Shown piece by piece: positions 1,815 through 12,088 of a DNA stretch of 17,514 nt. Numbering within the stretch: position 1 is the first letter of the stretch; each line of letters starts with the position of its first letter. A model generated the notes under the pieces. The model saw only the letters and a list, made by a program, of their open reading frames with translations. It searched no databases and was not told where the DNA came from. Both the position numbers and the translations under genes were made by a program. This DNA is from Aureococcus anophagefferens (lineage: Eukaryota; Sar; Pelagophyceae; Pelagomonadales; Pelagomonadaceae), in contig NW_008705566.1 of the NCBI RefSeq assembly GCF_000186865.1, forward strand, positions 1,251,927 to 1,269,440, in the 5' to 3' direction.

Positions 1815-3305
1815 TTAGGGCGCGGCGGCGGCGTGGACGCGCTCGTGGGGGGACGCGGGCGCCGCGAGGCCGAGGCCGCCGAGGACGGCGGCGTTGAGCG
1901 CCTCGAGGAGCGACCTCGGCCGCTCGCGCGCGGGCTTGACGAGCACGACGTCCTGGGTCGCCATCTTCTCCCGCAGGAGCTCGCCGCTCGTCATCAAATC
2001 GTCGACGACGCCCGGGGGCGCGAGGCTGGCGATCCAGGCTTCCCCGGTCGCCACATCCTCGATGTCGCTGTCCGCGCGGTTCGTCGCGACGAGGTCCTTG
2101 AAGGCGCCGTGGATCTCCTCCAGTTCGCTCTGGAGCTTCGCCTTGGCCTCGTCCGTCGCCTCCGTGACCGGCGTCACCGTGCGCTTGTACCTGCCGGCCG
2201 TGAACTGGAGGAAGTCGATCTTCTCCCGGTCGAGCACCCGGTGGAAGTTCGGGATCATGGTGATCACGCCGACGGAGCCGACGAAGGCGAACGGCGCCGC
2301 GACGACGCGGTCGCTGCAGACCGCGAGCATGTAGCCCCCCGACGCGGCGACGACGTCGACGGCCGCCGTGACGCCGACCCCCGTCGTCCTGCGCAGCCGC
2401 AACACCAGGCTCGCCGCGAGGCCGAAGTCCGACACGCTGCCCCCGGGAGACGTCACGCGGAGCACGAGCTCGTCGTGGCGCGTCGCGACGGCCGAGAGCA
2501 GGTCGACGACGGCCTCGAGCCGCGCGACGGCGCCGCGGGACCCCAGCTGCTTCTCCGTCGTGTCGAAATCGTAGACGAAGCAGCGCGGCCGCAGCGCCGC
2601 GGCGACGTCCGCGGCGTCGCCGCCGTCGCCGCCGAGCGCGTCGCGGACGAACGTCGCCCGTTCCGCCACGGCCTCGGCGTCCGCGGCCTCGCGCGCCTTC
2701 GCCGCCCGCGCGTGCGCCGCGGTCAGCGTCTCCCGCGCGTCGGCGGGCAGCGCGTCGTAGCCCGTCTCCAGCAAGTCGTCGAGCGCGGACCGGGCCTTGC
2801 GGAGCTTGGCGTCGTCGTTCAGGAGGTGGAACTCGAAGCCCGCGGAGCCGTCGTCGTCGTCGGCGCCGCGGCCGCCGAGCGCCGCGAGCGGCGACGGCCT
2901 CGGCTTCTTGCCCGTCCGCGCGGACGCGAGCGCCGGCGGCCGGGGGGCCTTGGACGCCGCGGCCGCCGCGCCGCAGCCCGCGAGCGCGCCCGCGCCCAGG
3001 AGCGCGCCGCCGACGACGTCGGGATTGGCGGCGAGCGCGCAGAGCGCCGCGGCGACGTCGGCGTAGTGCGCGTGGCCGAGCACGCCGACGCCGGCCAGCG
3101 CCGCGAGGCCGCCGGCGCCGCCGAGGGCCTTGACGGCCGCGCTCGGGCCTCGCTCCGCGCCGCGCCGCAGCAGCAGGCGCGGCCGCGTCGGCTCGTCGGC
3201 GGCTGTGGCGAGGCAGCGCAGCAACGAGTGGCGCTGCGCCTGCGCTGCGCGCGCGAAGCAGCGCATCATGCTCATTTCCTTTCCACAGCAACCTCGCGGC
3301 ACCAT
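1815..3305 (-). CDS. sohB: SohB-like signal-peptide-peptidase-type serine protease (peptidase family S49), organelle-targeted
   Basis: A 496-residue S49 serine protease of the Ser/Lys-dyad class, which cleaves membrane-associated peptides. The match to bacterial SohB is strong over residues 240-460: TSPGGSVSDFGLAAS, AASGGYMLAVCSDRVVAAPFAFVGSVGV, PNFHRVL, TAGRYKRTVTP and the DIEDVATGEAW segment. S322 in ASGGYM is the expected nucleophile and K374 in GRYKR the expected base. They are 52 residues apart, the same spacing as S147 and K199 of Bacillus SppA. The N terminus (MSMMRCFARAAQAQRHSLLRCLATAAD) is rich in Arg and Ala and lacks acidic residues, like a mitochondrial presequence. Hydrophobic stretches at about 57-78 and 96-116 could anchor it in a membrane. 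The ATG at 3305 is used; the Met at 3275 is equally plausible. The upstream RRP46-like gene ends only 39 bp away on the same strand. Mitochondrial rather than plastid location is inference. Confidence 0.9.
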   Translation of the reverse strand: MVPRGCCGKEMSMMRCFARAAQAQRHSLLRCLATAADEPTRPRLLLRRGAERGPSAAVKALGGAGGLAALAGVGVLGHAHYADVAAALCALAANPDVVGGALLGAGALAGCGAAAAASKAPRPPALASARTGKKPRPSPLAALGGRGADDDDGSAGFEFHLLNDDAKLRKARSALDDLLETGYDALPADARETLTAAHARAAKAREAADAEAVAERATFVRDALGGDGGDAADVAAALRPRCFVYDFDTTEKQLGSRGAVARLEAVVDLLSAVATRHDELVLRVTSPGGSVSDFGLAASLVLRLRRTTGVGVTAAVDVVAASGGYMLAVCSDRVVAAPFAFVGSVGVITMIPNFHRVLDREKIDFLQFTAGRYKRTVTPVTEATDEAKAKLQSELEEIHGAFKDLVATNRADSDIEDVATGEAWIASLAPPGVVDDLMTSGELLREKMATQDVVLVKPARERPRSLLEALNAAVLGGLGLAAPASPHERVHAAAAP

Positions 3306-4167: not shown

Positions 4168-5525
4168 ATGCTCGACGTCTGGCTGGACTTCGACCCCGCC
4201 GGCTTCGTGGCGACGGGCCTCGACGTCGACGACGATTTGGCCTACCTCTGCGCGCGGGCCTTGGAGCGCCGCGGCGACCTGCGCCTCGTCGGCGTGTCGG
4301 TCGTCGCCGGCAACGCCGCGCTCCGCGACACGGTCGCCGACGCCGAGGTCTTGCTGCGGCACGCGGGCGACGACGCGCCGATCGTCGCCGGCGCGAGCTG
4401 GGACGACATGCGCGTCGCGTGGCCGTCGATGAGGCGGCTCCACTTCCTCCGCGGCGACGTCGCCGGGGCCGCCGGGGCCGCGGCCCGGGCCATGCGCCGG
4501 GCCGTCCGGGCGGCGGCGCCGCGGACGGTGACGATCCTCGCGCTGGGCCCGCTGACGAACGTCGCCGCGCTCCTCGCGCTCGACCCGGCGGTCGCGCGGC
4601 GCCTGCGCCGCGTCGTCGCCATGGGCGGCGCGCTCGACGGCGGGCCGCTGGACCTCAACTGGATGTCGGACCGCGCCGCCGCGCGCGCGCTGCTCGCCGC
4701 GGGCGTGCCGACGACCGTCGTGCCGCTCGACGCGTGCGCGCAGGCCGCGTTCGCCGCCGCGGACGTCGCCGCGGTCGCCGCGTGCCCCGGTGCCGCGGCC
4801 CGCGCGCTCGCGCCGAAGATGCGGCTCCAGGCCTACGCGATGCCGCTCCTCGTCAACGGGCGCCTCGCGCGGCGCTTCCCGGACACGGCGCACGCGGCCC
4901 TTTTGAACGGCGCCGCCGCCTTCGTGCCCTGGGACGTCGTCGCGCTCTTCGCCGCCGCCAGGGCAGGAAAAGGGTGATTCAACGTCGCTTCAACGTGAGT
5001 GTTCTGCGCGCGCGCGTTTCGGAAACAGCACCCACGCTTCGAGAGCGCTCCGAGAGATGATCGCTCGTCCAAAAATCAGCCGAAACGAGCGGAAAACGAC
5101 CGAGATATGAGCCTTTGAAGTTGGGAATTTCGCAACCTTTTCCTGCCCAGGCCGCCGCGGACCCGGCGTCCTACTTCGACGAGTGGCGCGAGGTCGCGCT
5201 CGCGGCGCCGCCCTGCGACGCCGGCGAGCCCTGCGACGGCACCGTGTCCGCGCTCGTGTCGGCCCGGCCCGTCGCCAACGTCACGGCCTGGCTCGAGGGC
5301 GACGACGCGCGCGCGTTCGGCGTCGGCTCGGGCCTCGCGCTCGCGCCGACGCGCCTGCGCGCCGGCGCCGTCGTCGCGTCGATGCGGGCGCTCCTCTGCG
5401 AGGTGCCCGCGGCCGGCCCGCGCCCGCGCGTGATCCCCGGCGCCGCGCCGCACGCCGCGGCCGCGGTCGCGGCCGCGGTCGCCGCGCCCCTGCTCCTGCG
5501 CCGGTGGTGGCGTTGTCACTCTTAA
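4168..5525 (+). CDS. Nucleoside hydrolase (IUNH family), two exons split by an introner: join(4168..4950,5151..5525)
   Basis: Hydrolyses the N-glycosidic bond of ribonucleosides for base and ribose salvage. The joined product is 385 residues. Exon 1 (261 aa) carries the Ca-binding N terminus in a variant form, D7-F-D9-P, then ten residues, then VDDD (V20, D21-D23). It also has the family hallmark ILALGPLTNVAALL (123-136), the MGGA segment (152-155) and LNWMSD (163-168). The late active-site Asp is D256 in VPWDVVALF; the residue usually His before it is Trp here. Exon 2 resumes with AAADPASYF, as expected after this helix, and ends in an Ala-rich hydrophobic tail with Arg and Trp that could be a membrane anchor. 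Without exon 2 the frame stops at TGA 4975-4977 inside the introner. The start at 4168 is chosen because homology begins there and A is at -3. Substrate preference cannot be read from the sequence. Confidence 0.85.
4951..4958. repeat. Left copy of the 8-bp target-site duplication
   Basis: GCCGCCGC, identical to 5151-5158 directly after the element. The left copy falls within the intron and supplies its GC donor; the right copy is exon sequence. Confidence 0.82.
4959..4973 (+). repeat. Introner left terminal inverted repeat
   Basis: CAGGGCAGGAAAAGG; pairs with 5136-5150 with one mismatch at the second base. Confidence 0.9.
5136..5150 (-). repeat. Introner right terminal inverted repeat and 3' splice site
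   Basis: CCTTTTCCTGCCCAG on the plus strand; the reverse complement of the left end apart from one base. It doubles as polypyrimidine tract plus AG acceptor. Confidence 0.9.
5151..5158. repeat. Right copy of the 8-bp target-site duplication
   Basis: GCCGCCGC at the first codons of exon 2 (Ala-Ala-Ala). Identical to 4951-4958. Confidence 0.82.
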
Positions 5526-9865: not shown

Positions 9866-10486
9866 ATGGCATTGTCTCGCCTCAACAAGCTCCTCGCCGC
9901 CCTCGTCTTGACCTCTGCGACCGCCTTCGTCGCCCCGCGGGTACCCGTGAGCCCTCTCGTCAAGCACAGCGTGCTCGCGGACCCGGAAGCTGCGCCCGCG
10001 CCGGGCAGTTACGCCGCGGCGCGGGCCGCGGCGCAGGCCGCCAAGAGCGGCGCTCCCGCGGCAGCCGTGCCGCCCGCACCGCCCGCGGCGCCCGTTGCCG
10101 CCCCCGGCGAGCGATACGTGCCCGATGCGAAGGTCATGCGCGCCGTGCTCTCGACGCTCGGCGAGCGCATCGGGCCGAGCGGAAGACCGCTCAGCCAGGG
10201 ACGCCAGCTCGACAGCTTCACGAAGAACGTCGACGAGATCATCACTGCTTTCGGCGGCGTGCCTTCCGCGGCCGTCGCGCCGCCCCCGCCGCCGCCGCCG
10301 ACCGTCGCGCCGCCCCCGCCGCCGCCCGCGCCGCCGCCGGCGCCGCCGGCGCCGCCGACCGTCGCTTCGCGCCCCCCCCCGCCGCCGCCCGCGGCCGCTG
10401 CGCCACCGCCGCCGCCGCCGCCGCTGCCCACGGCCGCCGCGCCGCCGCCGCCGCCGCCGCCGCTGCCCACGGCCTCCGCGCCGCCT

Positions 10487-10518
<32 letters not shown>

Positions 10519-12088
10519 CGCGGACTCGCGGCCGCGGCAGTCGTCGATCCCTCCTCCGCCGCCGCCGGCCGCGGCCGCGCCGCCGCCGCCGGCCGCGCCC
10601 GAGGCCGCCGCGGCGCCCGCGGCGCCGTCGAAGCCGCGGTCGTCGCCGCCCGTCGAGGTCGCGCCGGTCTCGACGCCCCAGCCGCCGTCGCCGCGCGAGC
10701 TCCGCGAGGCCGCGGCGGCGCTCGACGCGGCGACGGTGTCCTACCTCGTCGAGGAGGGCCAGCACCTCGACGTCGAGACGGCCGACGCGGCCTTCTGGGC
10801 CGTCGTCGACGCCGTCGACGCGGCCGAGGCCGCGGACGAGCCGCTGCCCGGGGACGTGCCGCGGATGCTGCACCACGTCTTCGACGCGGACATGCGCCAC
10901 CTCCTCGAGCGGTCGCAGACGCGGACGAACATGACGTGCCTCAAGCCCGAGCGGACGGGCGCGTCCGCGTTCGCGGACAACATCGCGTACATGCTCGACG
11001 ACACGGCGATGGGCGACCTGCCGCTCGAGGAGGGCCGCAAGTGCAAGGGCGGCGAGTGCTGCGCCGACTGCTCGCGCAGCGTCTTCCCGACGTTCGCGAA
11101 CGCGGAGGAGTGCGACGTCGCGACGTTCCCCGGGCTCGACAAGTTCACGTTCAACGCGCTCGGCGACGCGCCGAGCGCGACGATCCTCCACTTCGTGCGC
11201 CTCATCGAGCGCGTGCGCCGTACCATCGCCCACGAGTACGGCCTGCCGCTCTTCACGGTGCTCCCCGTCCAGGCCTACAGCCGCAAGTACGTCGCGGGCG
11301 CGACGCAGACGGGCGGCGGCGGCTCCGAGGGCGACAGCGTGACGCTGCACTGCGACGAGGAGACGCACACGAACTACCACTACTCCTGCGTCGTCTACCT
11401 CAACACGCAGGGCGAGGACTTCGAGGGCGGCAACTTCATCTTCAACGACCTCGCGTCCGACGAGGAGATCGCCGCGCGCGAGGCGCGCGGCGGCGACGAC
11501 GACGACGCGCCCGCCGCCGCCGCGGGCGGCGGCGACGACGAGGACTTCGTCGACGACGAGGTCTGGCTGCTCGGCGACGAGTTCGAGGACGACGACGACG
11601 TGCCCGACGACTTCCTCGACGCGGACCTCGCCGCGAAGCTCGCGGCCGCGGAGGGCCTGGGCGACGAGGAGGGTTTAGGCATGACGCCCGAGGCGCTCGC
11701 GAAGGCGCGGCGCGCGGAGCGCAGCCTCACGCCCTTCGGCCCGACGAGGGGCGCCGCCGTCATCTTCTCGTCGGGCTGGGAGAACATGCACGAGGTCGAG
11801 CGGATCACGAGCGGCACGCGCTACGCGGTGCCGTGCTTCTTCACGACGTGCCCCGTGCCCGAGGGCGCCTACGCGCAGATGGCCGAGGGCAAGCCCGACA
11901 CCCACGAGAAGATGGCCGACGACTGGCTCCACCTGCTCCTCGCCCACATCAAGGACGAGGACCCGCTCAGCGCCATGGGCCGCGTCAAGGAGCTCCTCAT
12001 GAAGTGGCACTACCTCTGCACGCCCCTCGACGCGCACCCCGCGGAGGCGCAGCTCCTCGCGCGCAAGCACCTCTGGACGTCGTCGTGA
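9866..12088 (+). CDS. Plastid-targeted prolyl-hydroxylase-like 2OG-Fe(II) dioxygenase with polyproline linker
   Basis: A 740-residue 2-oxoglutarate/Fe(II) oxygenase of the prolyl hydroxylase superfamily. Residues about 1-18 form a signal peptide (MALSRLNKLLAALVLTSATA) followed by FVAPR, the heterokont plastid signature. An Ala/Pro-rich stretch and a helical segment follow, then a polyproline linker (about 136-255, runs of 6-9 Pro). The catalytic core has H495 and D497 in VTLHCDEETH, H642 in ENMHEVERITSG and R652 in GTRY; the last is ten residues after the His, the usual spacing for the 2OG-binding residue. The strands YSCVVYLN, FEGGNFIF and GAAVIFSSGWENMHEV resemble leprecan-type prolyl 3-hydroxylases. 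A Cys cluster (C393, C398, C399, C402) precedes the core, and an Asp/Glu-rich insert (about 529-612) splits it. The ATG at 9866 has a good context (gccATGG); 9857 is an in-frame alternative. Substrate and plastid location are inferred. Confidence 0.87.
10270..10630 (+). repeat. Polyproline-coding low-complexity tract
   Basis: CCG/CCC-rich sequence encoding repeated blocks of six to nine Pro separated by TVA, LPTAA, LPTAS or AAA. The block APPPPPPPLPTA occurs twice in tandem, and another (VAPPPPPP) also recurs. This is an FH1-like polyproline-II linker and a likely site of length polymorphism. Confidence 0.85.

Follow-up and report, generated by a model that had tools for sequence, protein, structure and literature searches.

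A transposable inverted-repeat element predicted to splice as an intron in a nucleoside hydrolase gene of Aureococcus anophagefferens

A nucleoside hydrolase gene of Aureococcus anophagefferens is interrupted by a short segment bounded by repeats. The locus raises the question of whether this segment is a transposable element that entered the gene as DNA and is removed as an intron, or an insertion that simply broke the gene. The window, i.e. the whole stretch of DNA analyzed, is 17,514 nucleotides long and corresponds to G000:C6:1251927-1269440 in the 49-Mb genome; positions are counted from its first letter. Sequence comparisons lead to the prediction that the insert is a copy of an inverted-repeat family, inserted as DNA, that is spliced as a 200-base GC-AG intron. 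We assign this reading a probability of about 0.94.

Table 1. Features of the window that bear on the insert, with the basis for each.
Feature	Positions	Strand	Basis
S49 peptidase, neighbor gene	1818-3305	minus	NCBI Aureococcus anophagefferens protein P0030
Exon 1, nucleoside hydrolase gene	4168-4950	+	PF01156, E = 2.3e-33; translation
Predicted intron, 200 bases, GC-AG, phase 0	4951-5150	+	removal restores 385-aa frame; no insert at junction in relatives
Left copy of the target duplication, GCCGCCGC; its opening GC is the predicted donor	4951-4958	+	exact match to 5151-5158
Non-autonomous inverted-repeat element (introner), 192 bp, body direction F	4959-5150	+	hundreds of genome copies
Left terminal inverted repeat CAGGGCAGGAAAAGG	4959-4973	+	14/15 match to right end
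Right terminal inverted repeat CCTTTTCCTGCCCAG, which holds the AG acceptor and its pyrimidine-rich tract	5136-5150	+	AG at exactly one end in 125/127 copies
Target duplication, right copy; exon 2 start	5151-5158	+	8/8 identity with left copy
Exon 2, nucleoside hydrolase gene, with TAA stop	5151-5525	+	carries on alignment to relatives; second genome match of P0001

A first-pass annotation had described 15-bp terminal inverted repeats (TIRs), an exact 8-bp flanking duplication and a 192-bp body of lower GC content, and all three are found at the positions in Table 1. The terminal repeats CAGGGCAGGAAAAGG and CTGGGCAGGAAAAGG share 14 of 15 positions, and the element has a GC content of 54.7%; the exons on either side have 78.4% and 81.1%. 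The acceptor arises from the lone mismatch between the repeats, where one end has CA and the other AG; the right repeat is both the pyrimidine tract and the AG acceptor. Local repeats are not the proof, because a generic search of the window alone for target duplications combined with TIRs gives 22 pairs against 33 in a control, many of them GC-rich chance pairs. The proof comes from the genome-wide family.

Exon 1 consists of 783 bp (261 codons, phase 0) and ends at a codon boundary. The TAA of the gene is at 5523-5525, and the 124 aa exon 2 product shows no match to Pfam families. Removal of positions 4951-5150 gives a frame of 385 codons (385 aa), as had been claimed, and with the element retained the frame meets a stop at residue 270. 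The assignment to nucleoside hydrolases holds as well, both from the exon 1 domain and from an alignment to relatives that runs across the junction. The closest relative, P0001, is 98% identical to the window protein, displays a single continuous 385-aa frame and comes from a 7,991-base contig. When P0001 is searched against the genome, the sole matching locus is the window gene, to which it aligns as two pieces that abut at the element.

Ten of the 27 relatives found were aligned across the junction at protein level. Nine of the ten are continuous across 4950/5151; the tenth, P0022, stops short of it. P0001 and P0002 show no gap, and seven relatives show a one-residue gap five residues downstream. 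No unrelated intron is found at the same site in the relatives at this protein level, where the genes of the relatives are predicted as one frame. An intronless allele or genome likely lies behind P0001, although metagenome gene prediction favors uninterrupted frames. The stop at residue 270 is what would be expected of an unspliced insertion that merely broke the nucleoside hydrolase gene. We give this explanation very little credence: the window exons are stop-free and 98% and 96% identical to the continuous relative, and the frame and donor rules described below hold family-wide.

The minus-strand neighbor, the S49 peptidase, shows long blocks identical to P0030 and other parts that differ like another gene model; it is 51% identical to a relative in Pelagophyceae sp. 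CCMP2097. Farther along the window, positions 10251-10750 have an 89% GC content, with many GCC-type repeats, and are situated within overlapping long open frames.

The element is highly repeated. The genome holds 379 exact occurrences of the TIR core GGGCAGGAAAAGG and 0 of its reversed control, so the related copies that the first-pass annotation wished to see counted are present. A DNA search scored 40 of 1,670 first-look candidates. Besides the window's own copy and a single short piece, the 41 matches listed contain at least 39 copies that are close to full length, with 94-98% identity. The first sampling, of 92 loci, gave 87 copies with a terminal AG, among them the one in the window. Forty further stretches and the departures from the rules were then added to give 132 copies; one spurious call, in L023, was dropped, which leaves 131 copies from 123 loci. 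For this set a terminal AG was required and the caller demanded a duplication match of at least 5/8. The caller missed L117, which has no duplication, and L118, where there is a one-base shift, and made no calls in L132 and L141; L019, L066 and L076 were without a callable duplication in the first calling and were judged by eye.

Terminal inverted repeats are present family-wide. The length is exactly 192 bp in 95/132 copies, and the target duplication is 8/8 in 104/131 copies and 7/8 in 18/131. One copy of 107 bp (L035:1409-1515) has a large internal deletion and retains both ends, the GT donor, the AG and an exact duplication. Clusters are also found: three introners each in L016 and L029 (3-kb locus), and two in L041, 164 bases apart.

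The acceptor rule was assessed in the 127 copies called without the AG condition (Table 1). The two exceptions are L116, with AG at both ends, and L063, in which a one-base shift is needed to place AG at an end. Some of these loci had been retrieved through the AG end itself, but the first 92 had not; there, 93 calls were made, five were judged spurious (L006, L010, L015, L017 and L018), and the rule holds in 87 of the 88 real calls. Among the sampled copies, none retains CA...TG unchanged at both ends.

The duplicated target begins with GC in 69 of the 131 copies, GT in 58, GA in 3 and TC in 1, i.e. with GY in 127/131, and the background of GY in sampled exons is 20.5% (10,238/49,862 positions). 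Where no duplication was required, the 14-base acceptor end CTTTTCCTGCCCAG shows 406 occurrences, and the next bases are GY in 400, A, C or T in 3 and GR in 3. An older, diverged end is followed by GY in 29/31 cases, with a pattern that omits sites with T at the third base. The claim that the element supplies the AG acceptor and the duplication the GC donor is thus borne out as a sequence rule across the family.

Six copies depart from the GY rule. In L116 and L118, AG stands at both ends and the GC/GT donor is read on the opposite strand; the targets of L120-L122 begin with GAGC, and L117 has no detectable duplication. L116 and L118 (G000:C8:1609776 and C21:630682) have the ends CTGGG and CCCAG and are in principle spliceable in either direction. 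L120, L121 and L122 (G000:C18:112268, C38:272246 and C66:17109) are the only copies met that have an intact duplication with a GA start; it is as if a rare GA-AG donor would be tolerated in a GAGC context. The TC start of L154 is likely a change in the left target since insertion, because the right target copy has GC.

Beyond GY the donor displays no consensus. RAGT at +3 to +6 matches at 0 or 1 positions in 97/131 copies, and no match to the U1 consensus is found beyond GY in the donors of the 131 copies. Phases of the GT-copy introns are 31/2/19, and 30/1/21 are expected from codon-wise GT; among GC copies, phase 0 is somewhat overrepresented (33/21/13, p = 0.03). Two other candidate signals were discarded. 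An internal GTGAGT at 4995-5000, considered as a hidden donor, lies on the opposite strand in copies with a reversed body, which still keep the frame rule. An RNA stem between the TIRs was also considered; a 220-base stretch folds with a TIR stem, but not clearly above shuffled sequences (z = −1.35; 24/200 as good).

The relation of the copies to reading frames was assessed by a codon test that uses the strong third-position GC of the genome, with the element and one target copy removed. It could be applied to 130 of the 132 copies, the other two having short flanks. Codon phase is equal on both sides after removal in 126/130 copies, where chance would give about one third, and in 116/130 the removed stretch has a length not divisible by three. 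The copies lie in the sense direction in coding-like DNA in 122/130 cases and antisense in 1; the remaining 7 are in non-coding-like DNA, one of them the call later dropped. In 80 of the first 87 copies, removal of the predicted intron strengthens the coding signal. Of twenty 1-kb stretches at round coordinates, 8 are coding-like in one direction and 7 in the opposite one; the remaining 5 are non-coding-like, including two that consist entirely of N.

A mechanism can be proposed in which a transposase acting in trans would paste the element into coding DNA and duplicate the 8-bp target. Where the first two duplicated bases happen to be GC or GT, these and the downstream AG would allow splicing that leaves the mRNA unchanged. 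Such spliceable insertions would survive and the remainder would be lost. The combination of GY, AG, sense direction and preserved frame argues that the surviving copies are insertions that would be spliceable without altering the message.

The sense orientation in coding DNA (122/130) and the GY...AG ends would also be accounted for, with no survival filter, if copies spread as spliced RNA, i.e. through reverse splicing of an excised intron into a second transcript, followed by reverse transcription back into the genome. A reverse-spliced intron would bring the bases of its source gene along, but the 5′ 8 bases of each copy duplicate its own downstream exon (8/8 in 104/131). The duplications are locus-specific and therefore point to DNA insertion and not to reverse splicing. 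TIRs also indicate DNA transposition, and an RNA-spread family would be expected to have neither TIRs nor target duplications, both of which are found here. A route through RNA is accordingly highly improbable. For most introners outside ascomycetes a DNA-transposition view is given in section 8 of one paper (PMC9860276).

A more serious alternative, though still an unlikely one, is that the transposase prefers targets beginning with GC or GT, so that the rule would not result from a survival filter. GY follows 400/406 acceptor ends, there are almost no neutral copies, and five of the seven non-coding-like copies have GY as well, the others being a copy that lost its left G and the spurious call. 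With a symmetric enzyme, RC should be as strict at the distal end of the target as GY is at the start. Among 87 copies, RC there reaches 33%, which exceeds every other position compared, though only just: those lie at 13-32%, a range that excludes three positions forced by GY itself. A strict symmetric target preference is therefore not the cause of GY. GT is, in addition, enriched 2.9-fold over GC (GT:GC = 52:67 in the copies vs 2186:8052 in the background, p = 6e-8), which fits donor strength and is as a splicing filter would predict.

A survival filter by itself is nevertheless insufficient, because neutral insertions with any target should persist outside coding DNA. Non-coding-like DNA holds 7/130 copies, compared with 17/72 random 240-bp tiles (Fisher p = 2e-4; 25/80 tiles were non-coding-like before 8 tiles of N were taken out). 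This shortage does not fit a plain survival filter. Insertion bias toward GC-rich gene regions, described for introners in general in section 9 of the same paper (PMC9860276), may be a reason for it; intergenic copies may also have been lost, or may be missing from the gapped assembly.

The body of the element is found in two directions relative to the acceptor, 79 F and 52 R among the 131 copies, and 49 F and 50 R among 99 copies found by pattern. Sense orientation in coding-like DNA holds for 73/79 F and 49/51 R copies, and the upstream end is CA or CG in 73/79 F and 49/52 R copies. The 5′ ends of the reversed copies are CA in 31, CG in 18, CC in 2 and CT in 1, so that 51/52 have no T at position 2. 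The acceptor is thus not tied to one end of the body, since both directions obey the frame and end rules. Body direction would then seem hardly to matter for intron making.

A first tree of 87 copies showed one reversed clade. The larger tree has 129 rows, three rows having been left out as short or undecided, and its best version shows 15 switches of direction. After collapsing of branches the count becomes 8 (below 50 or 70), 5 (80), 3 (85 and 90) and 1 (95); from 85 upward, both supports of a branch had to reach the value. The clearest switch is L124, an R copy within a young F group. Repeated switching of the body direction is suggested, but a single reversed clade is not rejected in the 129-row tree (p-AU 0.08). 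Because of this value, and because the switch count drops with the support threshold, the history may also consist of one or few switches.

One tentative explanation, which we do not favor, is a two-way introner in which the body flips between fixed inverted repeats, with CA upstream and the AG acceptor downstream; such a flip explains a switch of direction in one step. An alternative to which we give about even odds is that the two directions arose from one or a few events of point mutation, with no flipping: terminal TG would mutate to AG at the end that becomes the downstream one, with the reverse change at the opposite end. L116 and L118, with AG at both ends, are the intermediates expected of such mutations, and few events may suffice given the p-AU of 0.08. 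Two exact changes are needed for each switch, though, and both the 15 switches of the best tree and the near absence of T at 5′ position 2 in reversed copies speak against it. If the two-way introner is true, the terminal TG-to-AG change alone would turn an ordinary transposon into an intron maker, and this change may be tolerated at only one end because transposition would need the other.

Searches of the genome did not reveal a mobilizer. The hAT domains PF05699 and PF14291 gave no match in the gapped assembly, with silent controls; the KDZ domain PF18758 gave no match, again with a silent control, and the MULE domain PF10551 gave none with a control that responded. Given their controls, the hAT and KDZ results are no sign of absence. 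PF21787, a P-element-like transposase domain, gave one fragment (G000:C25:178372-178818; L166:4773-5219) beside an assembly gap and with 3 in-frame TAG codons. No introner ends are found near it in the readable 5.7 kb (4,262 of the 10,000 surrounding bases are N), and the fragment is not linked to the family as its mobilizer. On contigs C1-C4, none of the single TIR places among those listed (100 of 379 places) shows a longer element, and the remaining, paired places in that list are short by spacing. MITEs of the hAT and P superfamilies have 8-bp target duplications and short TIRs that begin with CA. The window family resembles them in the 8-bp duplication and in its short TIRs with CA at one end; the genome gives no hAT domain match (controls silent), and the P-like fragment lacks these ends in its readable surroundings. 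Viral spread was also considered and rejected: the 18-letter end pattern is found in 3 viral contigs, none with a second end nearby, and these hits are attributed to chance. Candidate introners have been reported in mirusviruses; these did not match a database of eukaryotic introners (PMC12768974).

The window offers a clean, checkable case of the birth of an intron by DNA transposition, in which target, duplication, predicted splice sites and frame can all be read and a close relative appears to be without the intron. The family as a whole is a natural experiment in which hundreds of insertions test the needs of the algal spliceosome. The apparent needs are GC or GT together with AG; GT survives 2.9 times better, and the donors have no other consensus in common. 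A body indifferent to direction would narrow the requirements for intron making to the two ends.

Huff, Zilberman and Roy 2016 (Nature 538:533) reportedly described the introners of A. anophagefferens as non-autonomous TIR elements that carry one splice site and co-opt the other from the duplicated target, with an intron phase that is said to follow codon-wise GT availability. The window family is of the same TIR type, with one carried and one co-opted splice site, and the phases of its GT copies likewise match codon-wise availability. The copy in the window is not known to differ from those elements. Direct repeats and TIRs of constant length are noted for A. anophagefferens introners in one paper (PMC7789003). 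A typical length near 210 bp is quoted in another, compared with 200 bases for the intron predicted here (PMC9481584).

Gozashti et al. 2022 display in Fig. 2B introners with TIRs and target duplications that carry the 3′ splice site and obtain the 5′ site from the duplication (PMC9860276), and the window family is like this type in all these respects. The Symbiodinium microadriaticum example of that figure has 4-bp duplications and the window family 8 bp. The Aureococcus sp. example in Fig. 2F of the same paper has both splice sites within the element and lengthens the transcript by 12 bp (PMC9860276), whereas the window family adds none, judged by frame. Multiple copies, TIRs, a duplication of constant length, one carried and one co-opted site and a preserved frame support placement among the TIR/target-duplication introners, as predicted from sequence, and the fit to a published transposon mechanism proposed in the first-pass annotation is likewise supported. 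No paper on two-way introner use was identified in a literature comparison that lacks the full text of Huff 2016. The intron-making mechanism is not new, being already known from the published introners of A. anophagefferens; the two-way use of the element is the part that may be new.
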